Below are positions 2 to 13,555 of a stretch of 37,778 bases of DNA, one piece after another. Under the pieces are notes generated by a model. The model saw nothing but the letters and a program-made list of their open reading frames with translations, was not told the origin of the DNA and searched no databases. The stretch's first letter is position 1, and every line of letters starts with the position of its first letter. This DNA is from Chthonomonadales bacterium (GTDB lineage: Bacteria > Armatimonadota > Chthonomonadetes > Chthonomonadales > CAJBBX01), in NCBI GenBank assembly GCA_013360745.1, contig JABWBA010000029.1, positions 1 through 37,778 on the forward strand, given 5' to 3'. The translations under genes were made by a program, and so were the position numbers.

Positions 2-3000
2 GGTTCACCGGCCCTTCGGGGCCGGTGCGGATTGAAACCGCGGCGCATGCCTTATACACACAAACCTGAGGCGGTTCACCGGCCCTTCGGGGCCGGTGCG
101 GATTGAAACCCTGCGACGGTACGTGCAGGGATTGGCAGGGCGAGAGGTTCACCGGCCCTTCGGGGCCGGTGCGGATTGAAACGCCGGGCCTAGGCCGGGC
201 CGTTGCCGGGCCCGGGGGTTCACCGGCCCTTCGGGGCCGGTGCGGATTGAAACGGGTTCCCGCGCGCGTCGATTACGCGGGTGGATGGCGGTTCACCGGC
301 CCTTCGGGGCCGGTGCGGATTGAAACCGAACGCCTTTGCCACGTCATTCCGGGACCTCATCGGTTCACCGGCCCTTCGGGGCCGGTGCGGATTGAAACCT
401 GCTAGACGCATACCTGCTGTAAGTCGAAACCGGGTTCACCGGCCCTTCGGGGCCGGTGCGGATTGAAACCCGCGTGCGTCATCCCTCCCGGAAGGCCTCG
501 GACGGGTTCACCGGCCCTTCGGGGCCGGTGCGGATTGAAACCCGTCTAGCGCGTTGGACGACGCGCCCGTGCCGCAGGTTCACCGGCCCTTCGGGGCCGG
601 TGCGGATTGAAACCGATTAATCGCCGCCGGCAATACCTACGGCCTTGGGTTCACCGGCCCTTCGGGGCCGGTGCGGATTGAAACGCGGGAGCATTAGCAT
701 GAGCCGCAGCAGGACGTCGGTTCACCGGCCCTTCGGGGCCGGTGCGGATTGAAACCCGGGTACGGGCATCGGGATACCCGGTACCGGGTACGGTTCACCG
801 GCCCTTCGGGGCCGGTGCGGATTGAAACACGGTCGGTCGCATGACGGTCATCCCCGCGAGCGCGGTTCACCGGCCCTTCGGGGCCGGTGCGGATTGAAAC
901 CGCCCCATCAACGACCAAATCGCGGTTGTCATATGGTTCACCGGCCCTTCGGGGCCGGTGCGGATTGAAACCACTCCGAGCCTGTTGTCCCGCCGGCGGC
1001 CATATCAGGTTCACCGGCCCTTCGGGGCCGGTGCGGATTGAAACGCATGGTTGGACGGCAATGGCCCGAAGTTCCAGAGGGTTCACCGGCCCTTCGGGGC
1101 CGGTGCGGATTGAAACCTGCTAGACGCATACCTGCTGTAAGATGTGTCGAGGTTCACCGGCCCTTCGGGGCCGGTGCGGATTGAAACGGCGATATCGAAG
1201 AGCCCGAGTATGTACCCGGGTTCGGTTCACCGGCCCTTCGGGGCCGGTGCGGATTGAAACCGAAGAGGAATGGACCGAGTTCGCCGCAGGCGTTGGGTTC
1301 ACCGGCCCTTCGGGGCCGGTGCGGATTGAAACTGAAGGGCAAACTGGCACTCGCGAAGAGCACGTTCACGGTTCACCGGCCCTTCGGGGCCGGTGCGGAT
1401 TGAAACAGCCGAATGGATCAGGGTCGCGCTAGCGGACAAGCTGGTTCACCGGCCCTTCGGGGCCGGTGCGGATTGAAACTTGAGGTGCACGCGCCTACGC
1501 GACACGCCGGCACCGGGTTCACCGGCCCTTCGGGGCCGGTGCGGATTGAAACATCGTTGCATGCGCTTGCATGTGGCTGGCCTATCACGGTTCACCGGCC
1601 CTTCGGGGCCGGTGCGGATTGAAACATTGACGTCCGTGGATACTTCGGCGACATCGAAGATCGGTTCACCGGCCCTTCGGGGCCGGTGCGGATTGAAACC
1701 TGCTGTAAGTCGAAACCGGGCGCAAGCCCGGTCCGGTTCACCGGCCCTTCGGGGCCGGTGCGGATTGAAACACACAACTGAATATGCTTGACCCTAACCG
1801 TAAGACGGTTCACCGGCCCTTCGGGGCCGGTGCGGATTGAAACCTCGTATGCCGGCCATACGCGCGAGGAGGGGCGAGGGTTCACCGGCCCTTCGGGGCC
1901 GGTGCGGATTGAAACGTCGTGCAAGGGCAGTACCTCGGCTATAACAGCTGGTTCACCGGCCCTTCGGGGCCGGTGCGGATTGAAACGCTGGCGGCTGGTC
2001 CATGAGGCCGGCGGCTCGTCCGGGTTCACCGGCCCTTCGGGGCCGGTGCGGATTGAAACCTCTTCGGAAGGCGGATCGTAAACGGGCGCCCGCTGGTTCA
2101 CCGGCCCTTCGGGGCCGGTGCGGATTGAAACGACTGTTAGACGTAGATGCCTAGGTGTGCGGCGAGGGTTCACCGGCCCTTCGGGGCCGGTGCGGATTGA
2201 AACCCGCCGAACCATGGAAACGGGGCTTTCAACAACCGGTTCACCGGCCCTTCGGGGCCGGTGCGGATTGAAACAATCATCCGGCATGACGTGCTCGCCC
2301 TCATATCCGCACGGTTCACCGGCCCTTCGGGGCCGGTGCGGATTGAAACGCGTGGGTGGTCTCTCAGGCTGCTCCGCATCCCTGGTTCACCGGCCCTTCG
2401 GGGCCGGTGCGGATTGAAACGTCTCTCTCCTTGGCCAGTCTCGTCAGTCCCGGGGGGGTTCACCGGCCCTTCGGGGCCGGTGCGGATTGAAACGTCCGAT
2501 CTGGAATGCGCCCTGAAGGTAGCCCCTCGGTTCACCGGCCCTTCGGGGCCGGTGCGGATTGAAACGATTGTAGTGACGACCCTGTCGTAGATGTCCGGGT
2601 CCGGTTCACCGGCCCTTCGGGGCCGGTGCGGATTGAAACATCCAGTCGAGCAGCAGGTCCTCGAGAGCCTCCTCCGGTTCACCGGCCCTTCGGGGCCGGT
2701 GCGGATTGAAACAGTGTTACGCCCCGGATCCCCCGTCGGATCGCGATAGGTTCACCGGCCCTTCGGGGCCGGTGCGGATTGAAACGCCGCGCGCGTTGCC
2801 GAGCGTCGCGAGTGGGACAGGTTCACCGGCCCTTCGGGGCCGGTGCGGATTGAAACCAGATCGGGCGCATGACCGTCCTGCCGTCTAGCGGGGTTCACCG
2901 GCCCTTCGGGGCCGGTGCGGATTGAAACCTCCTTGGCCTGTCTCATCAGCCCTGGGCGGCCATGGTTCACCGGCCCTTCGGGGCCGGTGCGGATTGAAAC

Positions 3001-4505
3001 GCCGCGCGCGTCGCCGAACGACTCGCGTGGGACAGGTTCACCGGCCCTTCGGGGCCGGTGCGGATTGAAACTTGCGCATCGTGTCTCATTTCTGCCCATG
3101 CTACGAGGTTCACCGGCCCTTCGGGGCCGGTGCGGATTGAAACGCGACCGCGAGGCCGCTAATCATGGCTGGCGACATCGGTTCACCGGCCCTTCGGGGC
3201 CGGTGCGGATTGAAACTCGTGTCGGCGATACGTAGCCGAGCAGGACACGCTCGGTTCACCGGCCCTTCGGGGCCGGTGCGGATTGAAACGACGACTACGG
3301 GACATGGCACGTCGATTACGACGACGGGTTCACCGGCCCTTCGGGGCCGGTGCGGATTGAAACAGCTGATGGCGCGCACTAGCGCGTCCTGTACAAGATG
3401 GTTCACCGGCCCTTCGGGGCCGGTGCGGATTGAAACCCCCGGTCGACGGACGCCGAGGTGACGCCTACCGGGTTCACCGGCCCTTCGGGGCCGGTGCGGA
3501 TTGAAACGGAATGCTGCGCAGCTGTACGGAACGGGTTGAGCCCGGTTCACCGGCCCTTCGGGGCCGGTGCGGATTGAAACGAGCCAACCGAGGTGCGGCA
3601 ACGCTCTGCTCCCTACGGTTCACCGGCCCTTCGGGGCCGGTGCGGATTGAAACTGCGCAGGCCATGCGAAGTCCGCCCTGTAACGGCGGTTCACCGGCCC
3701 TTCGGGGCCGGTGCGGATTGAAACGCTCACATGCGCTAAGTCGAAACCCGGGGCAACCCGGGTTCACCGGCCCTTCGGGGCCGGTGCGGATTGAAACGTC
3801 CGAGTGGATCCAGCCTTGGCCTGCCGCCGCCCGGGGTTCACCGGCCCTTCGGGGCCGGTGCGGATTGAAACACGTACAACCGGCGCTCTTGGTACCTGGG
3901 CCGCTGGGGTTAACCGGCCCTTCGGGGCCGGTGCGGATTGAAACGACTTACAGCAGAAACGCGTCCATCATGAAGCGGGGTTCACCGGCCCTTCGGGGCC
4001 GGTGCGGATTGAAACCTGGCGGAACCACGTGTTGCCGCGCGTACCGCCGGGTTCACCGGCCCTTCGGGGCCGGTGCGGATTGAAACGTCGAGGAACGGGC
4101 GTCATAACATGGCTGAACAAGGTTCACCGGCCCTTCGGGGCCGGTGCGGATTGAAACCAGCCGCGGAACCGCAACCGAACGCTGCAGGATCGGTTCACCG
4201 GCCCTTCGGGGCCGGTGCGGATTGAAACCTCCGCACTCCAGACGCGGAGGAGGAGGAACCACGAGGTTCACCGGCCCTTCGGGGCCGGTGCGGATTGAAA
4301 CCTGCGGCTCGCGGCGGAGTTCGGCGAGCTGCACGTGGTTCACCGGCCCTTCGGGGCCGGTGCGGATTGTAACGGCACCCATCGCCGGATCCGGTCCGCG
4401 ATCCGGTCGGTTCACCGGCACGACGGGGCCGGTGCGGATTGTAACGGCACCCATCGCCGGATCCGGTCCGCGATCCGGTCGGTTCACCGGCACGACGGGG
4501 CCTTC
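2..4505 (+). CRISPR. CRISPR array 1, trailer part (about 62 repeats)
   Basis: The repeats are 37 bp and begin GGTTCACCGG and end GCGGATTGAAAC. They start at 2, 73, 146, 217, 290, 362 and so on to 4337, with spacers of 34-38 bp. I count 61 intact or near-intact repeats, a degenerate one at 4409-4445 and a truncated one from 4481. Each repeat holds a perfect 9-bp stem (CACCGGCCC pairing with GGGCCGGTG) closed by TTCG, followed by the ATTGAAAC handle expected of Cas6 cleavage. The 3' ATTGAAAC and the decay at the right-hand end show transcription on the plus strand with the leader left of the window. The repeat at 3908 has one change (TTAACC). The repeat at 4337 ends ATTGTAAC. No cas gene separates the array from the convergent Cmr operon. 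Confidence 0.98.
4374..4505 (+). repeat. Decayed, duplicated trailer end of array 1
   Basis: The 35-bp spacer at 4374-4408 is repeated exactly at 4446-4480. Both follow a repeat ending ATTGTAAC rather than ATTGAAAC. The repeat at 4409-4445 has lost the TTCG loop and the inner stem (CACGACGG in place of CCCTTCGG). The copy at 4481 matches it for 22 bp and then diverges. A tandem duplication of one spacer-repeat unit after the terminal repeat had already mutated explains this. Confidence 0.9.
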
Positions 4506-4706: not shown

Positions 4707-5432
4707 CTACTTGCCGGGCTCGACCACGCCGAGCATGCCGTAGTCGAGAGCGATCTCGATGGGGTCCTTCGCCGCCACGGGCTTCATGTCCTTGTCAAAC
4801 TCGGGTGGCGTGTACTGAATGGGTCTGTCGGCATTGAGGCACGCTAAGACACTTCCTACCGAAGCGACAGCCGTCATACCAGTGAAGTCGAGGATCACGT
4901 CTGACTCGGCCAATCCATCAGGCAAGGCCGCGTATACGGCCGCGATCTTGTTACGCATCTCGACCGGATCATAGACATCGTCGATCGCCACCATGTAAGC
5001 TTGCTTGCCGTTCTGGCGCAGACCCTCGGTGGCAGCTTCTGCTACCTGCGCGCTGCGTCCCGAGATCACCATCCAGCAGTGCTCCAACGCTGATGAGTGG
5101 TACTCGATGGCCTTTGCCAGACTGGTCGAGTTGCTGACCAGCACTATCAGTCCCTTCCGTGGCTTCGGCGGGCGCTTGCCGGGGAGCGGCGGAGCGGGAC
5201 GGTCACGGTTGACCACGAGCGAACACACCCCGGCCGATCCGAGAAGCACAAACCCGGTGACTACTGCGATCGCGCCGCTATGGGTCCCCTTGGTGCCGAG
5301 CATGGAGAGGAGCCAATCGTACGCCGCGTCACCCAGGATCGCCAGGGAGATCGCGCCGACGAGGAACGGAACTAGCGCTTCGGGCGTTAGCATTAGCTGC
5401 AGCCCGCTTTGGACGTGCCTTCTAGCCTTCAC
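4707..5432 (-). CDS. Membrane-anchored CARF protein (Cam1-like candidate effector)
   Basis: Predicted 241 aa. The GTG at 5432 is chosen because AAGGAGGA sits 5 nt upstream; the longer frame from TTG at 5471 would overlap csx15. Two hydrophobic helices lie at about residues 20-42 and 53-75. Basic segments come before the first and after the second (KARRH; GKRPPKPRKG), predicting both ends in the cytosol. After a Pro-rich linker, residues 94-208 look like a CARF Rossmann fold: a first strand ending in SNSTS (100-104) and the signature DFTGMT (182-187) followed by a small-residue helix. CARF domains bind cyclic oligoadenylate made by Cas10. The known membrane-CARF protein Cam1 depolarises the membrane on activation, so a similar role is inferred. 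It is the last gene of the Cmr operon. Family assignment rests on motifs only. Confidence 0.75.
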   Translation of the reverse strand: MKARRHVQSGLQLMLTPEALVPFLVGAISLAILGDAAYDWLLSMLGTKGTHSGAIAVVTGFVLLGSAGVCSLVVNRDRPAPPLPGKRPPKPRKGLIVLVSNSTSLAKAIEYHSSALEHCWMVISGRSAQVAEAATEGLRQNGKQAYMVAIDDVYDPVEMRNKIAAVYAALPDGLAESDVILDFTGMTAVASVGSVLACLNADRPIQYTPPEFDKDMKPVAAKDPIEIALDYGMLGVVEPGK

Positions 5433-5467
5433 GTGAGTCCTCCTTGCGCCAGTAGAGACGACATCAC

Positions 5468-5860
5468 TCAAGCGCGGGGTAACCGCTGTTGCCGCGCTGT
5501 ATCCCTCACCTCTTGCAGGTTGACGATCTCCGCGACTTCAAAGCGAGGCGGGACCGCTCCGACGACGGGCCGAAGACGCAGTACGGCCGGGAAGTAGCCC
5601 GCCCGCCCATGAATCTCGGCGAGCACGAGGCCTGCGATGACACTCAGGCTTGGCAGGTTCACGAGGAGCGGCGCGGTCTGCCACTCCTCCGCGGTCAGGC
5701 CGACCGAATCGATGAGCGCCCCGGCCTGCTCGAGGAACGAGCCAGTCGGATCGAACTGCGCCGGACAGGCGAAGACCCGCTCGACGGCGTGCCCGAGCAG
5801 ATCCTCAACCGCCTGCGCCTGCTCCGGCGTGATTGGATGGGCGAAGTTCAGGAGGGTCAT
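5468..5860 (-). CDS. csx15: Csx15 family protein
   Basis: This 130-aa protein starts MTLLNFAHPITPEQ and contains LLVNLPSLSVIAGLVLAEIH, GYFPAVLRLRPV and PPRFEVAEIVNLQEVRD, which I recognise as the Csx15 pattern found only beside type III systems. It has no CARF-type motif and no obvious catalytic dyad. Csx15 has been proposed as a ring nuclease or cyclic-oligonucleotide-binding protein that dampens signalling; I know this only as a proposal. The start ATG at 5860 overlaps the stop of the CARF-HEPN gene (ATGA), with GAGGA about 10 nt upstream. The next gene starts 35 bp after its stop. Sitting between two CARF effectors suggests a shared controller of their ligand. Confidence 0.85.
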   Translation of the reverse strand: MTLLNFAHPITPEQAQAVEDLLGHAVERVFACPAQFDPTGSFLEQAGALIDSVGLTAEEWQTAPLLVNLPSLSVIAGLVLAEIHGRAGYFPAVLRLRPVVGAVPPRFEVAEIVNLQEVRDTARQQRLPRA

Positions 5861-7020
5861 GGGGTTGGGTCCTCAGGAACGAGGGCGAGAAGCGGCGAGA
5901 GCTCCGCAAGCAACTTGGCAACGTTCTTCAGAACCGTCTCGGCGGACATCGCTGAAGCCCGCATCCCACAATGGAGGACGTCGTTCCGCCATTGGGAGAC
6001 CCGGTCAAAACGGTCAGCGACGTCGGGGGGAACTTCGCGATTGTGGATGTGCCTCTCTGCCTCATCGCGCCGTTCGCGCGACTCCCAATCCAGGTCCCGT
6101 AGGATGCAGACGAGCGTCACCAGCCACTCACGCGATAGCGCCAGCGCATGGAGAGGATGACCATGGTTCACATACCATCGAACCATGGCAAGCTGGGCTT
6201 CCAGCATGATGCGAGGTGACATGCCGCCAGTGTCAACGGCGAGAGCGCCGAGAGCGCCGAGAAGCGTGTTGCGCACGGCGTGGAACGCCGGAGTTCGCTC
6301 CTTGGTCGTCTCAGCGTGCCGGTTGATGGCCTCTCTGGAGCGTCGAGCGGTCTCCGACACCAGCCGAGGCCGGCATGCCAGCAAGTCGGCTGATGCACGT
6401 TCGAGATCGCCTGCCACCTGGCCAAGAGCCGTAAGGTCATCGCGCCTCCCTGCCGAGGCGAGACGCCGACGTTCCAGGCCTATAAGCTTAGCGATGATCG
6501 CTGCATCGCCGTAACGTTGGAATGCTCCGACGGCCGCAGTCCAGTCGAGGACCGAGACAAGGCTCGTCAACTCGATGATCGGGGCCACACCATCGTCATC
6601 GCGTGCCTCATAGGCTCCGTAGTAGATCGCAGCGACGGCCTCAGGGTTGGTCGCACGAGCGAAGCCGGCAACCGACATGGCCACGAACGGTATGGCTCGG
6701 AAGGCGTGCGTCACGTCCAGTGCGACGTTTGGGCCGGTCATCTCGCCCTGAACGGCACGAAACAACGACCACATTCCGGCCTCGTCGTTGGGCAGCTGGA
6801 TCCCGACCGCCCGACAAGTCGCCCCGGACTCGGCAAGCTCAGCCTCGAGCGTGCCAAACCACATCGCACGCGCCTCATCTGTGACGAACACGACAACATC
6901 GGCGATGCGTTCGATGCGCGAAATCGCGACGGGGCAGAGCCGGGTGCGGAACGCCTGGTCGTGAAGGCGGTAGGGAACCTCCTTATACTCGGTTGTGCCC
7001 AGAAAGGTGAGTAACCGCAT
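5857..7020 (-). CDS. CARF-HEPN ribonuclease (Csx1/Csx2, TIGR02221-like)
   Basis: This 387-aa protein begins MRLLTFLGTTEYKEVPYR, typical of the TIGR02221/Csx1 group. The N-terminal CARF half carries the DxTH motif (DVTHAFR, residues 102-108), which contacts cyclic oligoadenylate. The C-terminal half is helical and ends with a HEPN active-site motif, RNDVLH (Arg345, His350; R-x4-H). Members are activated by cyclic oligoadenylate and cut RNA non-specifically, driving dormancy or abortive infection. The start ATG at 7020 has AGAGGAGG 8 nt upstream. It follows an 84-bp gap with a hairpin after cmr6 and overlaps csx15 by 4 bp. The CARF-HEPN class is firm; assignment between Csx1 and Csx2 is less so. 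Confidence 0.9.
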   Translation of the reverse strand: MRLLTFLGTTEYKEVPYRLHDQAFRTRLCPVAISRIERIADVVVFVTDEARAMWFGTLEAELAESGATCRAVGIQLPNDEAGMWSLFRAVQGEMTGPNVALDVTHAFRAIPFVAMSVAGFARATNPEAVAAIYYGAYEARDDDGVAPIIELTSLVSVLDWTAAVGAFQRYGDAAIIAKLIGLERRRLASAGRRDDLTALGQVAGDLERASADLLACRPRLVSETARRSREAINRHAETTKERTPAFHAVRNTLLGALGALAVDTGGMSPRIMLEAQLAMVRWYVNHGHPLHALALSREWLVTLVCILRDLDWESRERRDEAERHIHNREVPPDVADRFDRVSQWRNDVLHCGMRASAMSAETVLKNVAKLLAELSPLLALVPEDPTP

Positions 7021-7055
7021 GACCGGAACCTCCTCTGTTAGGTGCGGAGCCGCCC

Positions 7056-7089
7056 TCCCTCCGGCATCGGAGTGCTCATGCCAGAGGGA
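7056..7089 (-). terminator. Intergenic hairpin between cmr6 and the CARF-HEPN gene
   Basis: In the minus-strand transcript TCCCTCTGGCAT (7089-7078) can pair with ATGCCGGAGGGA (7067-7056): 12 bp including one G-U pair, with a 10-nt loop. No T-tract follows, so it is not a classic intrinsic terminator. It could slow RNA decay, attenuate read-through or mark a processing site, setting the ratio of interference complex to signalling effectors. The pairing is seen; the role is inference. Confidence 0.5.
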
Positions 7090-7104
7090 AGGTAATGGAC
7101 GGGA

Positions 7105-8166
7105 TCAGGACGTGGACAGCCCCGTGATCCGGTAGTGATGACCGCCAATCAGCTCGACCGTCACAGTGACACCGCTGAGCGACTTCTTCTTTTTCAGCCG
7201 CTCCGCCTGTTCTTCAGTCAGCTTGAGATCGGCCCTCTTGCAGGTCGCTTTGCCCGGCCCGGCGGGGTTCGTGCATGACACCTCTCCCGTTTGGGCAAGC
7301 AGCGTTATGGTCACATCGGGCCACGCAAGGGGTGGTGGTGGTGGTGGCGGCGGCGTCCCTTCATCCGGCTCCTTGAACCACCCATACCCCGCGTTGGTCT
7401 TGCCGCCGACGCCGTGCGTGGTCATGGCGTGGACGAGCAGGTCCTTGACGAAGCCGGCCCACTCGGACGAAGGTGGCTTGATCGCGAAGAGGAACTCCGC
7501 CTTAGGCTTGACAACGATGAACGGCACCGGCGTCGGGTCGTCGAAGTCCGTTGGCCAGGCGTCGTTCTTCTGCCGATAGTAGTCCGGATGGTGGACAGTG
7601 ACCACATCGCGATGGAAGGGCTTGCAGTCCCCTTCCGGTACGTACCACGCATCGTAGAACACGCACAGGCCCGCGCTCTTCTGGTCGCCGATGAGGTCGA
7701 GAAACTGCTCAGCGCTCACGTGCCCCTCCTCCTCGCGAGGGAGCTTCGCCAGCTCCTCGGCGACATCACGGCACACGCCCTTGATGGCCGAGCCGGGGAT
7801 GTACGGCATGCCGTAGGTATGGAGAGTCGTGAGTCCAACCTCGATCGGGCTCGACATGCCCAGACCGACCGCCATCGGTCCGCCGAGCGTCAGCGGGATC
7901 TGGACGGCTCCTGGGAGGGAGGCCTTGTAGCGCTGGAACGCTGCCTTGTAGATCTCGGAAGCAGGGCTGGCCTGAACCCTTTCGAGTAAGGTGCGGACGG
8001 GGTCCGGGCGATTCTCGCGCTCTTCCTGGGATTTCCGGCGACCGCTCAGGTACCGTTGGAGCGCCAAGCCAGGGCTGTCTAACGGCGGGACGTTGCTGTT
8101 ACAGCCGGTCAGAGGTAGGGCCGGGACCAAGTCATTGAGTGCGCGCTGACATGCTGGGTTGGGCAT
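7105..8166 (-). CDS. cmr6: Cmr6, type III-B RAMP protein, with a C-terminal extension
   Basis: 353 aa. The RAMP core has the Cmr6 landmarks: LHTYGMPYIPGSAIKGVCRD (residues 115-134) and the Gly-rich GVGGKTNAGYGWF loop (252-264). Cmr6 is a Cas7-like subunit near the target-3' end of the Cmr filament. Normally the protein ends soon after the Gly-rich loop. Here eight consecutive prolines (272-279) lead to a further 74 residues, partly beta-like, with a Lys cluster (KKKK) and two Cys. The poly-Pro is encoded by a GGT/GGC run near 7331-7350 on the plus strand. ATG at 8166 has AAGGAGG 5 nt upstream and lies immediately after cmr5. Confidence 0.93.
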   Translation of the reverse strand: MPNPACQRALNDLVPALPLTGCNSNVPPLDSPGLALQRYLSGRRKSQEERENRPDPVRTLLERVQASPASEIYKAAFQRYKASLPGAVQIPLTLGGPMAVGLGMSSPIEVGLTTLHTYGMPYIPGSAIKGVCRDVAEELAKLPREEEGHVSAEQFLDLIGDQKSAGLCVFYDAWYVPEGDCKPFHRDVVTVHHPDYYRQKNDAWPTDFDDPTPVPFIVVKPKAEFLFAIKPPSSEWAGFVKDLLVHAMTTHGVGGKTNAGYGWFKEPDEGTPPPPPPPPLAWPDVTITLLAQTGEVSCTNPAGPGKATCKRADLKLTEEQAERLKKKKSLSGVTVTVELIGGHHYRITGLSTS

Positions 8167-8167
8167 G

Positions 8168-8575
8168 CTAGCCTCCTTCCTTCGCGGGGCGGGCGTCTTT
8201 CACCTTCAGGATCGAGACGGCGAAGCGCTTGAAGAAGAGCCAGGCCGAGACGATCTTGCGTGTGGCGAGCATGTAGTCTACGGTGGATAGCTCCTGTATG
8301 TGCTCGCCAAGGCCGTTGCGTTCTACACCGAGGATGCAGGCAACGTGCCGGAGGAGCAGCTCGTGAGCCTTCTCACGGGGCTTATCGTTGTTCCCTGCTT
8401 TGTCGAGTGAGAAGGCCACCGCCTGACACAGGCCGCATGTCCGCACCATGACCGGGAACTCGTGGCAGAGGCCGCCGTAAGTCTTTCGGACCTCGTTTTC
8501 TGATCCTGTGTGGGCGTCGTGGACCTCGCGAACCAGCCGCTCGGCCGTCTGCATCAACTGCTGTGATCGTGTCAT
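8168..8575 (-). CDS. cmr5: Cmr5, type III-B small subunit
   Basis: 135 aa from ATG at 8575, chosen over a TTG at 8593 because GAGGGGA lies just upstream and because Cmr5 proteins typically begin MTRSQQ. The predicted all-helical protein contains YGGLCHEFPVMVRTCGLCQA and a C-terminal helix with KIVSAWLFFKRFA, both typical of Cmr5. Cmr5 lines the minor filament beside Cmr4 and stabilises the crRNA-target duplex. It sits between cmr4 and cmr6 with almost no gaps. Confidence 0.93.
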   Translation of the reverse strand: MTRSQQLMQTAERLVREVHDAHTGSENEVRKTYGGLCHEFPVMVRTCGLCQAVAFSLDKAGNNDKPREKAHELLLRHVACILGVERNGLGEHIQELSTVDYMLATRKIVSAWLFFKRFAVSILKVKDARPAKEGG

Positions 8576-8585
8576 GGCAGTCCCC

Positions 8586-9413
8586 TCACCCAACGATCAC
8601 GCGGCAGAGGCCGCGGCCCACGCTGGCGTTGCCGCCTATCTGCACATACGAGATACCGTTCAGCACGGTCTTCGGGTCGCCGCCGTTGGCATGGAGCGCC
8701 GCGCCGGCGAAGATGGTCTCGGAGGGGACGGCTTCCTCGTACCAGAGGTTTCCGCCGTCACCGGTCGTGGTGCCGCGCTCGTTCAGCGCGATCCGCGCGG
8801 CCACCTCGGTCGCCGTCTCGCTCAGGAAGCTGAACAGCTCGTCGGAGACGACGGCGAAGCGCTTTGTGAAGGGCGTCGGCCCTTGCTGATCGTTGGCGAA
8901 GAGCGCCCCGGCGATGCCGTCGGCGATGGGCATTGTCGCGGCAGCGTCCTCGGAGGGGTTCAGGTCCAGGTCTTCGAGGTAGACCTTGTTGCCGTTGACC
9001 AGCGTGCTGCCTGGGCACACCTTGCATGCGTCCTGGTTAGCGACCGAAGGTGTTCCGACGGTGAAGGGCGGGGCAGCGCCGATGGCCTTCATGTCCTTGG
9101 CGAACCGGCCCAGGACCAGTGGGCAGGTGACCCAAGCGAACGTGCCGAAGAAGCTCCGCACAGGCAGGCAGAGGATGCGCTGGTCCGTGAGGACGATCTC
9201 GCCGGCTTTCTCCTGAGAGCCAAAGGCCGCTTCCTTGGCGGTCTCATCGCCGGTACTGGTTGCCCTGACCACCCCCTTGATGCTGCTGCCGGGGATGATG
9301 GGCCAGCCGGTGGCCTTCTCGCGGGCGATCGGCAGGTCAATGACCGCGACGGTCTGGCCGGTTCCGGAATGGACCGGCGTGATGGCGTGCAGATAGACAA
9401 TAGCTGCTTTCAT
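8586..9413 (-). CDS. cmr4: Cmr4, target-RNA-cleaving backbone subunit
   Basis: 275 aa, the normal length. It opens YLHAITPVHSGTGQ and continues VAVIDLPIAREKATGWPIIP; the Asp falls at residue 26, the position of the Cmr4 catalytic Asp that cuts target RNA at 6-nt intervals. PGSSIKGVVR follows, and LPVRSFFGTFAWVTCPLVL marks the family. The C-terminal Gly-rich loop is GGNASVGRGLCRV. It has AGGAGG before ATG 9413 and an 11-bp gap to cmr5. Target cleavage should be intact. Confidence 0.96.
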   Translation of the reverse strand: MKAAIVYLHAITPVHSGTGQTVAVIDLPIAREKATGWPIIPGSSIKGVVRATSTGDETAKEAAFGSQEKAGEIVLTDQRILCLPVRSFFGTFAWVTCPLVLGRFAKDMKAIGAAPPFTVGTPSVANQDACKVCPGSTLVNGNKVYLEDLDLNPSEDAAATMPIADGIAGALFANDQQGPTPFTKRFAVVSDELFSFLSETATEVAARIALNERGTTTGDGGNLWYEEAVPSETIFAGAALHANGGDPKTVLNGISYVQIGGNASVGRGLCRVIVG

Positions 9414-9430
9414 CCGTTACCTCCTGAGTA

Positions 9431-10558
9431 CTACCACATGCCCCAGACGGCCAGTCCGTAGCCGTCGCGGCGGTCTTGATCGTTATCACTCACGGGCGCA
9501 AGCCATGCCGACGAGGCAAGCGCTGATGTGTCGCCCTCAGCTTCGAAGAAGAACACGGACCCGGCCGGCACGAGCCACCGAACGGCCTTGGGTTCGCGCT
9601 TGGCGTAGTCCCATCCGCTCACGGCTTCGCGGCGCGGGACGCACGCCGACACGAGCGTGAGCTTCAAGCCACTGACGCCGGGCGGCGCTCCTCCAGCCCA
9701 GCCCGGCCTCCAACCGCCCGAGAAGATGGCCGGGGTCACGAGGATCATGCGGATCCGTCTGGCTGACGCCAGCTTCTGGTTGAGGTCGTCTGGGCACGCG
9801 GGCCAATCCGTAGGCGTCCCGGTCTCGGCTATGGCAACGCGCCGCTCGCCGCCGAGGAACAGGGGCCCCCTGATGTCGGTATCCGAAGCCACCCTCACAA
9901 CGTAGGACCAGTCGCGCTCGATCTTCTTGCCGTCCTTGTCCCTTCGCCGCTCCAGCGGAACCACCGATGCGGTCGTGAACAGCATGCCGTCCTCGCTGAT
10001 CCCGTTCGGGCCGATCTGGACGTGGGTCCGCTCCTCGACGGCGGGCAGCCCGATGTTGCAGAAGTCCTCGGGCAGGGGGTCGAAGCCCGCTCCCGTCGGT
10101 TCGGCCAGCCACTTCTCGAGATCGCACCAGAGCCACATGCTATAGCCGCGCTCGGGCTTCTCCTCGTTGGTCACCTCAACAGGACGCAATCCGTCGGGCA
10201 TGTTGCAGCCGCTGTCTGTCGGAACCTCCCGGGGTCGCAGGCACATGCACTGCAGAGGATTCTTCTTCTCGTTGTCCTTCTTGTAGATCACCGCGTCGGC
10301 AGGGGCCGCGACAACGGGCTTGCCGTCGCCGATGCACACCACCGGGCCATGCACGTCGAGAGCCAGTGCTTTCGTCGGGCCGTCCGTCTCCCACTTCCAG
10401 CCGGCCGCGGGACCGACGGCGGTGCGGACTGCGCCGGCGATGACGCCCGGGTAGGGCACAGGCAGGCTATCGGCCCGTTGGGCTCCCAGCTCCGCCGCAA
10501 ACGGGCGTCCGTCACGAAAGAGGAGCGGGTCCACGCCCCGCAGTCGTATCGTCTGCAT
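9431..10558 (-). CDS. cmr3: Cmr3, crRNA 5'-handle binding subunit
   Basis: 375 aa. The opening IRLRGVDPLLFRDGRPF and PVPYPGVIAGAVRTAVG are the Cmr3/Cas5-type signature, and the C-terminal HRDGYGLAVWG-type loop is present (RRDGYGLAVWGMW). Cmr3 binds the 8-nt 5' handle of crRNA and contacts Cas10. Two adjacent ATGs (10561 and 10558) overlap the cas10 stop; the second has better spacing from GGAGGT. It lies between cas10 and cmr4, as in many Cmr operons. Confidence 0.93.
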   Translation of the reverse strand: MQTIRLRGVDPLLFRDGRPFAAELGAQRADSLPVPYPGVIAGAVRTAVGPAAGWKWETDGPTKALALDVHGPVVCIGDGKPVVAAPADAVIYKKDNEKKNPLQCMCLRPREVPTDSGCNMPDGLRPVEVTNEEKPERGYSMWLWCDLEKWLAEPTGAGFDPLPEDFCNIGLPAVEERTHVQIGPNGISEDGMLFTTASVVPLERRRDKDGKKIERDWSYVVRVASDTDIRGPLFLGGERRVAIAETGTPTDWPACPDDLNQKLASARRIRMILVTPAIFSGGWRPGWAGGAPPGVSGLKLTLVSACVPRREAVSGWDYAKREPKAVRWLVPAGSVFFFEAEGDTSALASSAWLAPVSDNDQDRRDGYGLAVWGMW

Positions 10559-12222
10559 CATGACACCTCCGGGTACTGAGCGAGGAAGCGGCAGATGATG
10601 AGCTTGGCGACGAGGGCCTCGAGTTTGTCGGCATTACAGCATTTGCCGATCGCTTCTTCCAGACTGGCCAGGTACGGCTGATTGCCCGTGCCCCCTTGCT
10701 TCCGTTTCAGGATGCGGTCGGCCTCGGCCTTGAGCGTGTCGGCGCTCAGGACCACGACGTACGAGGTGCTGGCAACTTCGGAGTGGATCGCCCTGTCGGC
10801 CTCGGCCTTTAGCGTGTCGGCGCTCAGGACCCCCTTGGCCTCACGGGCAAGGTGCCGCAGTTCGTACGGGAAGCCGTGCGACAGGCCGTCCTTGTCGCGG
10901 AATGCCTTCTCCCATTTGTCCCATGTCGTGAGCTTGTAGTCGGATGCCCACTGTTCGGCGACGATCCTCGGTTCGCCGCCCCGGGTATGCAGCGCCACGG
11001 CCAGCGAGTTGCGCTCTTTCTTGGCCTCCCGCTCCGCTTCGCGGGCGCGTTCGAGGCTGATCTGCAGCGGGTCCATGTGGTGCACAATGGCGACACCGAC
11101 AGACAGGTTGCCGCGAACCGCCGCGTGGAACGCCTTCGCCAGCTCCGCGGCGCAATCGAGCGCCTTGTGGGTTGGCAGAAGCGCGACCACATCGTCGCCG
11201 CCCGAATAGACGCAGTGACCGCCATGGCTCGAAACGATGCCATTGGCCGCTTTGGCGAACGCCGAGAGGTTCCGGCTGAACGCGATGTGTTTCGCCGGTG
11301 TCGTCATCTCCCCGAGGAGCTTGCCCATCTTGTCACCGTCAGCGCAGAGGATGGCATAGTAGGAGGCCCAGTCGGGAGGTTCCTTGCCCTCACAGGCCGT
11401 GCGCGCCTTGTCTCCTTGCACCATGGTCAGTTCGCCGCCCTCGACCGCGTCCTTGAGCCTGCCCGGATAGAGCAGGTCGCCGACCGACAGCCTCTTCTTG
11501 GTAGACTCCGCGATCGCTGAGAGGGTATCGAACGCTGCCGGATTGTCCCGGCCGATCTGGGCACGAAGCGCGACCGACGAGAGCTCCGACGTAGACGGGA
11601 CTCCCCCTTCGCCGCGCCCCTGGACCCGCTTGATCAGCGAGACCGCGTCGAGGTGCTCTGCCTTTTTCAGGAACAGCGGCCCTTTTGCCCGAGGCATCGT
11701 ATCGAGGATGACGCTGTCCCGGGCCGGATCCAGGGGGCTCTTGCGAATACCTGCGGTGCTGGTCGGCTGCTCGAAGTCGCGCAGCGCCTTGCGGCCCGCG
11801 AGGAGGAGTTCCACCTGCTTGCGGGCCTCAGGGTAGTTGTCGTCGTTGACCGGGACCCACGCCGCGTAGAACTCGAGGAACGACTTGACCTGGGCGTCGG
11901 CAAGCGCGTCGTCAACATGCGGCTCAACCTCAGCCGTCAGAGCGCTGGCCCAGGCGTCCGCCAGCACCTTCTGCGCCGCAGTCTGTGCCGTCTGGGCGAT
12001 GGCCTTCGGATCGCCCGAGACCTTGGCGAGAATCTTGTTCGGTCCGTCCGTGGCCGGATCGGCCGGGAAGATGAGCTCTCCGCCCTGATCTCTTACACTG
12101 ATCGCCACGGCTGTCGCGATCTTGACGAGCAGGTCGGAGCCTGCGCTCAGGTCCGCCGTCCGCCGCGCCGCCGCGATGAACGGCTGGACGGGTCCAATGG
12201 AGATGGAGAGGAGATGGGTCAT
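10558..12222 (-). CDS. cas10: Cas10 (Cmr2), GGDD cyclase, no HD domain seen
   Basis: 554 aa from ATG at 12222, which overlaps the cmr1 stop (ATGA) and has AGGTG upstream. The N-terminus ISIGPVQPFIAAARRTADL is the classic Cmr2 opening. The palm has CADGDKMGKLL (about 293-303) and the catalytic YSGGDDVV (GGDD at 341-344), so synthesis of cyclic oligoadenylate from ATP should be intact. I find no HD motif and no CxxC zinc pair, so single-strand DNase activity is not expected. Near the C-terminus a 12-residue segment, LSADTLKAEADR, occurs twice (about 466-477 and 492-503), encoded by near-identical 37-bp direct repeats. Confidence 0.95.
   Translation of the reverse strand: MTHLLSISIGPVQPFIAAARRTADLSAGSDLLVKIATAVAISVRDQGGELIFPADPATDGPNKILAKVSGDPKAIAQTAQTAAQKVLADAWASALTAEVEPHVDDALADAQVKSFLEFYAAWVPVNDDNYPEARKQVELLLAGRKALRDFEQPTSTAGIRKSPLDPARDSVILDTMPRAKGPLFLKKAEHLDAVSLIKRVQGRGEGGVPSTSELSSVALRAQIGRDNPAAFDTLSAIAESTKKRLSVGDLLYPGRLKDAVEGGELTMVQGDKARTACEGKEPPDWASYYAILCADGDKMGKLLGEMTTPAKHIAFSRNLSAFAKAANGIVSSHGGHCVYSGGDDVVALLPTHKALDCAAELAKAFHAAVRGNLSVGVAIVHHMDPLQISLERAREAEREAKKERNSLAVALHTRGGEPRIVAEQWASDYKLTTWDKWEKAFRDKDGLSHGFPYELRHLAREAKGVLSADTLKAEADRAIHSEVASTSYVVVLSADTLKAEADRILKRKQGGTGNQPYLASLEEAIGKCCNADKLEALVAKLIICRFLAQYPEVS
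10717..10831 (-). repeat. In-frame 37-bp direct repeat inside cas10
   Basis: Segments 10717-10753 and 10795-10831 are identical except for one base and are 78 bp (26 codons) apart, so the frame is kept. They encode the same 12 residues, LSADTLKAEADR. This is a recent tandem duplication in the C-terminal helical domain of Cas10. The equality with the 37-bp CRISPR repeat length appears coincidental; the sequences are unrelated. Confidence 0.9.
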
Positions 12223-13469
12223 GGGAGCACCTGCACCTTCGAGTTCCATCTCTGTCGGGCATATTCAAGGACGGCGGAGCGGACATCCTGACCATTGAGC
12301 GGGTCACACGCGGCACGATCGGTAGGGCTGAGTTCTATCCATGCTCGTATGACGGGCGTTCCGTTCAGATCGAGGTCGCCGAGCTCCCAGGCATGCGGTG
12401 CCTGGAGTACCGCGACAAGTGGTCGGTACTTGCCGTTCGGCATGGCGATCGCTTTGGTAATGACAGGCGACGCTAGTCGAGTTGCGCCTTGTGAGGCTGC
12501 CTGGAGGGTGTGTTCGTCGGGATCGCCCTGATCCTTGAAGTGGAACACGATGGGTAGGCCCAGATCGGCGCGCGGAAACCCGCATTGTACAGAGTGCCCG
12601 GGTGGATGCGCGTAAGACGGACGGTTCTCGATCCTGCGTATGGAGTCTGGCTCGGGCCACTTTGACCTGCCCGGCATAGGCGGGTGACCAGGGTACCGCA
12701 TCTGTCGGAATGCCGCGTAGGTCTCAACGGCGGTCTTCCAGGCGGATACCGCGCTGTCCATCGGGGCACCGAGCACATATCGCGTGCCCGACAGCAAAGT
12801 GACAGGCGTTCCTTGACTTGCGCTAATGCGTTGTCCCCCATCGGGAAGACCACCAGTCTCTGCCATGAGCGACCCGCAACCGCGCCGTGTACGGGCACCT
12901 ACGCCGCCGAGACATATCCACGCATTTATGGTGTTTTCCAGCTCGATCGCTAGGCCGTGCGCGGGAGCGTAGTGGAGCTTCACCACCATTGCACACGATT
13001 CTAGGGCCCGGTCGGGCTCTATCTCGATGTCGAAGCCGGGCTTCTTGAGGCGGCCTTGGAACGGATGCAGTGCGTACCGGGGCCACTGCGGTATCAGTTG
13101 TGTCGCGAGTGCCTTATACTTCGACGGATATCGAGGGTTCCTCTCGAATCTCGCCCAGATCACGGGATCATCGTACTTCACATCCTCGACCCCAATCCTA
13201 ACCTTCCCCGGCTTCTCCATCGAGCCCCAGATGGCTTCCTCGGCATCGAAGAGCGCGCCGGGGGTCGTGTACTGCGCCCCCGCCGTCGCCCGCCACCAGA
13301 ATCTCAGGTGCCCTCGGATGGCGGCGGGGCGGATGGGCATGAGCGGATCGACACAGCGCGTCTCGTATCCCCCGCCGAACATCGGGGTGATCAGCTTCAG
13401 CTGGAGCGTGATGGTCTCGGGACCCGGCGGAACGTGCCACGTCGGAGGACTGCAGGGAGCGCGACTCAT
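12219..13469 (-). CDS. cmr1: Cmr1, type III-B tip RAMP subunit
   Basis: 416 aa from ATG at 13469 with AGGAGGT about 7 nt upstream; an in-frame GTG at 13493 has no better support. ITLQLKLITPMFGGGYET followed by DPLMPIRPAAIRGHLRFWWR (about residues 41-60) is the Cmr1 signature. GGVGARTRRGCGSL is the RAMP Gly-rich loop. Cmr1 binds the distal end of the Cmr filament and controls target-RNA entry. Its start overlaps the stop of a 29-codon ORF and its stop overlaps the cas10 start, so three reading frames are translationally coupled. Confidence 0.95.
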   Translation of the reverse strand: MSRAPCSPPTWHVPPGPETITLQLKLITPMFGGGYETRCVDPLMPIRPAAIRGHLRFWWRATAGAQYTTPGALFDAEEAIWGSMEKPGKVRIGVEDVKYDDPVIWARFERNPRYPSKYKALATQLIPQWPRYALHPFQGRLKKPGFDIEIEPDRALESCAMVVKLHYAPAHGLAIELENTINAWICLGGVGARTRRGCGSLMAETGGLPDGGQRISASQGTPVTLLSGTRYVLGAPMDSAVSAWKTAVETYAAFRQMRYPGHPPMPGRSKWPEPDSIRRIENRPSYAHPPGHSVQCGFPRADLGLPIVFHFKDQGDPDEHTLQAASQGATRLASPVITKAIAMPNGKYRPLVAVLQAPHAWELGDLDLNGTPVIRAWIELSPTDRAACDPLNGQDVRSAVLEYARQRWNSKVQVLP

Positions 13470-13555
13470 GGGAGAACCTCCTGTAATCGACACACAGACA
13501 TGAAGAGGCGAGGGGCGCTGCGGAACTGGCCCGTCGCACGGCGTCTCAGCGGCAT
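13466..13555 (-). CDS. Possible 29-aa leader peptide coupled to cmr1
   Basis: A short frame starts with ATG at 13555, preceded by AGGAGG with a 5-nt gap, and encodes 29 residues starting MPLRRRATGQFR and ending RLQEVLP. Its TGA overlaps the cmr1 ATG as ATGA, and the cmr1 ribosome binding site lies inside it. The peptide is basic, with no membrane segment and one Cys. It may be a regulatory leader that sets translation of the operon, or a small Cas-associated protein. The start and overlap are seen directly; expression is inferred. Confidence 0.5.
   Translation of the reverse strand: MPLRRRATGQFRSAPRLFMSVCRLQEVLP

Follow-up and report, generated by a model that had tools for sequence, protein, structure and literature searches.

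Seven of the approximately 61 spacers in the CRISPR array analyzed here very probably derive from type II hammerhead ribozymes located between phage genes, or from the gene end adjoining such a ribozyme. The array opens a 37,778-nt stretch of a contig of a Chthonomonadales bacterium; the whole of this stretch is referred to as the window. About 60 copies of a 37-nt repeat (GGTTCACCGGCCCTTCGGGGCCGGTGCGGATTGAAAC, with the 3′ end GATTGAAAC) occupy positions 2–4373 and are followed by a degenerate trailer unit. Spacers were numbered S1 to S62 from the left, with S61 and S62 being one duplicated spacer. A preliminary description had recognized the array and had listed six spacers (S6, S16, S24, S30, S52, and S55) as converging on one gene end and its downstream hairpin, and all six were found where it had placed them (Table 1). 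Ribozyme identity is well supported for five spacers (S6, S24, S34, S41, and S52); S16 and S55 are tied to the group by their overlap with S6 alone. The pair S34 and S41, which carries the opposite half of the RNA element, was absent from the earlier list.

Table 1. Features of the window discussed in the text. Hammerhead positions refer to the ribozyme numbering; coordinates in brackets are those of the ribozyme part.
Feature	Position	Strand	Content
CRISPR array	2..4445	+	37-nt repeat; leader side is the left
S6	399..432	+	Gene end LLDAYLL-stop, then first 11 hammerhead positions (422-432)
S16	1117..1150	+	Gene end as in S6 (25/25 identical), then diverged, ending GTCGA
S24	1700..1734	+	Gene end, stop codon, hammerhead positions 1-27 (1708-1734)
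S30	2132..2166	+	LLDVDA-stop; membership of the group unsupported
S34	2421..2456	- (antisense)	Hammerhead positions 40-66 (2430-2456), then AAGGAG
S41	2929..2963	- (antisense)	Hammerhead positions 35-66 (2932-2963), then AAGGAG
S52	3725..3760	+	Other gene end (AHMR-stop), then hammerhead 5′ half (3739-3760)
S55	3945..3978	- (antisense)	Gene end MMDAFLL-stop and first ribozyme bases AGTC; PAM on GAAA core
Type III-B locus adjoining the array	4707..13493	-	CARF-TM, Csx15, Csx1, Cmr6, Cmr5, RAMP (Cmr4 position), Cmr3, Cas10/Cmr2, Cmr1

The relatedness of the spacers was evident from an all-against-all comparison (n = 61), in which ten comparisons scored 14 or more (range 14 to 25), against no score above 13 in six shuffled sets. 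Of these ten comparisons, seven fell within the group of S6, S16, S24, S52, and S55 and the pair S34/S41. Several details of the preliminary description held: S6 and S16 share their first 25 nt, S24 overlaps S6 and has at its end a perfect 7-bp hairpin capped by GCAA, and S52 and the reversed S55 read as described. In register, S55 is identical to S6 at 21 of 27 positions. The diverged end of S16 is consistent with a ribozyme displaced by 5 nt. Five of the six listed spacers are thus related, with scores above those of the shuffles, but S30 is not one of them. It was related to no other spacer, matched neither of the ribozyme models described below and resembled only loosely the end of the gene before one phage ribozyme (L095), and was dropped.

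In S6, S16, S24, S52, and S55, a stop codon is followed by sequence leading into GTCGAAACC and, where the spacer is long enough, by the GCAA-capped hairpin. Judged from sequence, this shared structure can with high confidence be assigned to the 5′ half of a type II hammerhead, and S34 and S41 to its 3′ half. In the 5′ half, GUC would represent the 3′ strand of stem II, GAAA the core, and the GCAA hairpin stem III, ending at the cleavage site. The 3′-half spacers run from stem I through the CUGANGA core and stem II to a ribosome-binding site, with CUGANGA-GAC forming the opposite side of the core and of stem II. Each of the spacers carries at most half a ribozyme, and S6 only 11 ribozyme bases; GAAA is present in S6, S24, and S52, and CUGANGA in S34 and S41. 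The ribozyme part of S24 comprises the 3′ strand of stem II, the GAAA core, the whole of stem III with its GCAA loop, and the UC of the cleavage site, and matches a phage ribozyme (L086) at 26 of 26 positions. S34 covers the 3′ strand of stem I, the CUGACGA core, the 5′ strand of stem II, and the pseudoknot tail. S41 begins further upstream, with loop I (ATGGCC), and continues with the 3′ strand of stem I, a CUGAUGA core, the 5′ strand of stem II, and a GGCC pseudoknot tail that can pair with the GGCC in loop I. The preliminary description was therefore right that a stop codon and a structured 3′ region had been sampled repeatedly, but the structure is stem III of a hammerhead and not a mere downstream hairpin.

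Complete copies of the ribozyme were found in many phage contigs. Some viral contigs containing TAAGTCGAAACC followed by GCAA go on with CTGATGA-GAC about 20 nt past the hairpin, and on such contigs Rfam reported Hammerhead_II (RF02276). Further contigs fetched by means of the two halves belonged to the same family, with scores of up to 60.2 bits. Against the Rfam gathering cut-off of 37, L097 scored 60.2 bits and L170 43.9 bits, while L078 (35.7) remained just below. Alignment and pair counts (alignment A1) showed the core CUGANGA and GAAA, an open stem II, and closed stems I and III, and core positions were invariant across phages. The covariation check proposed earlier for the hairpin also supported the structure: across 27 phage ribozymes, 95.7% of cells pair and both partners vary in 13 of 19 pairs, values reached by none of 500 shuffles. 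Covariation was seen in stems I and III as well as in the pseudoknot between loop I and the 3′ tail, for which 89.6% of cells were paired and four of five pairs changed on both sides. This pseudoknot (helix 4) is the least independent helix, because part of the set had been picked with GGCC fixed on both of its sides; the selection set no requirement for complementarity in stems I and III.

When Rfam was run over all families, the ribozyme halves in the spacers stayed below significance, and for this reason dedicated covariance models were built. A first model (R1), derived from the set of 27 ribozymes, was run over 60 spacers as separate loci (E ≤ 10). It returned five matches: S41 (33.4 bits, E = 3e-9), S24 (23.8 bits, E = 2.4e-6), S34 (20.1 bits, E = 3e-5), S52 (14.7 bits, E = 0.0012), and S6 (10.9 bits, E = 0.017). 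Since spacer-derived patterns had selected the R1 set, a second model (R2) was built from 17 ribozymes found by Rfam and not by spacer patterns, most of them bystanders on the same contigs. R2 recovered the same five spacers and none else of the 60, namely S41 (30.7 bits, E = 6e-8), S34 (18.4 bits, E = 1.7e-4), and S24 (17.8 bits, E = 2.4e-4), with S52 (10.2 bits, E = 0.032) and S6 (9.1 bits, E = 0.065) being marginal; E-values of such short models are rough. In an unfiltered cmsearch without truncation handling, only S41 was clear.

The position of the phage copies between genes is mirrored in the spacers, where the junction is seen from both ends. By simple frame rules rather than curated genes, 31 of 41 phage copies overlap the stop codon of an upstream frame or begin no more than 5 nt from it. 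Downstream of 37 of the 41, a Shine-Dalgarno-like sequence and a start codon occur within 50 nt. Tandem series of two to four ribozymes were seen on several contigs. Roseobacter phage CRP-212, a cultured phage, has two hammerheads (L270:2239-3064), unannotated in its record, on either side of gp55. The notion of one gene end as the common target is too simple: four spacers carry LLDAYLL-stop or its MMDAFLL variant, S52 follows AHMR-stop, and S34 and S41 lie on the side of the next gene. The target is a recurrent ribozyme junction behind different genes. On one viral contig (L190:5494-5629), we also noted a hammerhead-like sequence with a tRNA gene a few bases downstream.

The source phages have not been seen, as none of the seven spacers gave an exact protospacer. 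In IMG/VR, patterns for S6, S24, and S55 gave chance matches only and a combined pattern of gene end and ribozyme gave none, and the joined S6-S24 sequence had no significant blastn match among named phages. Two candidate sources were rejected, L031 because the match lay inside another gene, and L169, a low-GC contig in which the match was read in a 30-codon frame. With the patterns tried, ribozyme halves were not detected in CRISPR arrays of other genomes; one other match (G258) was without ribozyme and without repeats.

The closest candidate for a related phage is contig C107 (identical to L170; 13.6 kb), which was assigned to the same genome bin and encodes RecT, a RecE-like exonuclease, a replication initiation protein, and sigma-like proteins, in addition to one type II hammerhead. 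S41 matches the interior of this ribozyme at 32 of 35 bases, above all shuffles, and reaches the same count in L096 and L097. S46 (3290-3326) matches the RecE-like exonuclease gene (L170:7531-7567) at 28 of 37 bases, likewise above all shuffles. These two matches speak for a link between C107 and the host; the binning as such could be wrong. The S41 site has no TTC PAM in C107, L096, or L097, and C107 is mismatched at spacer position 4. C107 is thus probably a relative of the phage that gave S41, or an escaper. Its RecT, used as query, retrieved just one distant viral contig.

The array is supplied by a type I-C adaptation module. Only one other contig of the genome (C84) contains the same repeat, a single copy at its end behind a leader, and adjoining this leader is a type I-C operon encoding Cas3, Cas5c, Cas8c, Cas7c, Cas4, and Cas1 (Cas1c), followed by a short Cas2-like frame that was read by eye. 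Given this arrangement, the array most likely begins on C84 and runs on into the window. On its other side it adjoins the type III-B locus (Table 1). Next to the Cmr genes, positions 4707-7020 encode a CARF-TM protein, Csx15, and the CARF-HEPN protein Csx1; the III-B system is of the signalling type, with more than one effector.

Overlapping homologous spacers revealed the PAM for S6, S16, and S55. Reversed, S55 reads CCGCTTC-ATGATGGACGCG..., and S6 and S16 begin exactly after the position of that TTC. At its other end S55 stops at TAAGTC, where S6, S24, and S52 go on with GAA, which belongs to the ribozyme core and is complementary to TTC. TTC is the canonical PAM of type I-C systems (PMC8482600). 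Altogether the seven spacers use at least four PAM positions. Four of them (S6, S16, S24, and S52) are in mRNA sense and three (S34, S41, and S55) are antisense, so that all seven can serve DNA targeting but only three could be of use for RNA targeting by III-B.

Acquisition at hammerhead junctions by the I-C module accounts for these observations and is, as a whole, an explanation we hold with strong confidence. The host lineage would have met, again and again, tailed phages with type II hammerheads between neighbouring genes, each spanning from the stop codon of the upstream gene to just before the ribosome-binding site of the next. The I-C adaptation proteins (Cas4-Cas1-Cas2) would have taken DNA beside TTC PAMs at such junctions on at least seven occasions, using both strands and several PAM positions. 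For the phage, the most likely role of the ribozyme is to divide a polycistronic transcript into shorter mRNAs. The crRNAs of the host most likely direct I-C DNA interference at the junction, and the three antisense spacers could also direct the adjoining III-B complex to RNA.

Phage hammerheads and I-C arrays are each known already. Type II hammerheads in phages, their clusters flanking single genes in prophages, and a suggested processing of long transcripts have been described (RF02276; Perreault et al. 2011, PMC3088659). The ribozymes found here share with those the core, the open stem II, the pseudoknot of loop I and 3′ tail, the gene-flanking clusters, and the suggested transcript processing, but they appear as CRISPR spacers and in halves. 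Type I-C systems sharing repeats with a type III system are on record in three genomes (PMC8482600) and resemble the present one in the Cas4-Cas1 I-C operon, the I-C repeat, and the TTC PAM; unlike them, about one spacer in nine is here directed at one kind of phage RNA element. The theta ribozymes of gut phages (PMC10879173) are likewise self-cleaving RNAs in phage genomes with a proposed role in RNA processing, but have an HDV-like fold and are associated with tRNAs; the text of that paper names neither hammerheads nor CRISPR. Natural spacers against hammerheads were not found described in the open-access literature, which is weak evidence of absence, and a single CRISPR array repeatedly directed at a ribozyme appears to be previously undescribed. 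It links phage ribozymes of a widespread but little understood class to a host lineage with stored immunity against the carrier phages, and it offers a testable case of CRISPR memory concentrated on a functionally constrained RNA element. Phages escaping these spacers would reveal which ribozyme changes are tolerable, which bears on what phage hammerheads are for.

Two further readings of the targets themselves were considered. An ordinary intrinsic terminator behind one phage gene could place a strong GC-rich hairpin right after the stop codon, but the hairpin is not followed by a T run in spacer or homologues, conservation extends beyond it to GTCGAAAC and CTGANGA, a start site lies within 50 nt in 37 of the 41 copies, and the stems covary as in a hammerhead, making this reading very improbable. 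Just as improbable is an adaptation module that reverse-transcribes and captured its spacers from the ends of phage RNA, for which the III-B locus beside the array and the predicted RNA cleavage sites as targets could be cited. Neither a match to the reverse transcriptase family PF00078 nor an RT-Cas1 was found in the genome (97% complete), the array abuts a standard I-C Cas4-Cas1 operon, S6, S16, and S55 have a TTC PAM, and both strands were used.

Within the preferred reading, acquisition of junction DNA by the I-C module, it is unusual that so many spacers fall on a ribozyme. Five to seven spacers at ribozymes were observed; chance would give 0.2-0.4 at the ribozyme density of C107 or CRP-212 and about 2.4 of the 61 at that of L086, under the assumptions that all spacers stem from such phages and that related spacers count as independent. 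Most simply, the site would be repeated within phages and conserved across them. Such a neutral origin, with several junctions per phage, an invariant GAAA that supplies a bottom-strand TTC PAM, and conservation making the spacers alike, has in our view about an even chance. It agrees with the contigs carrying ribozymes in tandem, with the expectation at L086 density, and with the PAM of S55, which comes from GAAA; the expectation at C107 or CRP-212 density falls far short of the observed number, and the core PAM is used by S55 only, with the other spacers using at least three other positions. Somewhat less probable is that ribozyme spacers were kept by selection, or primed acquisition nearby, since a constrained core would match many related phages. 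S6/S16/S55 and S34/S41 are diverged versions of one site, as if related phages had returned, and the core is invariant across phages. Priming, however, usually scatters spacers over kilobases, and the mismatch and missing PAM of C107 indicate that escape next to the core may be possible. The stronger form of this idea, in which the array is a selected memory of a catalytic RNA whose junction spacers were kept or re-acquired because the core cannot freely mutate away, seems to us rather unlikely. If it were true, one spacer would work against many phages, and CRISPR systems would be exploiting self-cleaving RNAs as a vulnerability of phages.

Some other features of the array were noted. S3 (183-216) and S11 (756-791) are GC-rich and internally repetitive or palindromic. 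The distal end (4337-4481) consists of a degenerate duplicated repeat-spacer unit, as expected of the oldest end of an array. Two further diverged spacer pairs, S39/S42 (2786-2819 and 3001-3034) and S12/S40 (829-863 and 2857-2891), each look like one site taken from related phages.
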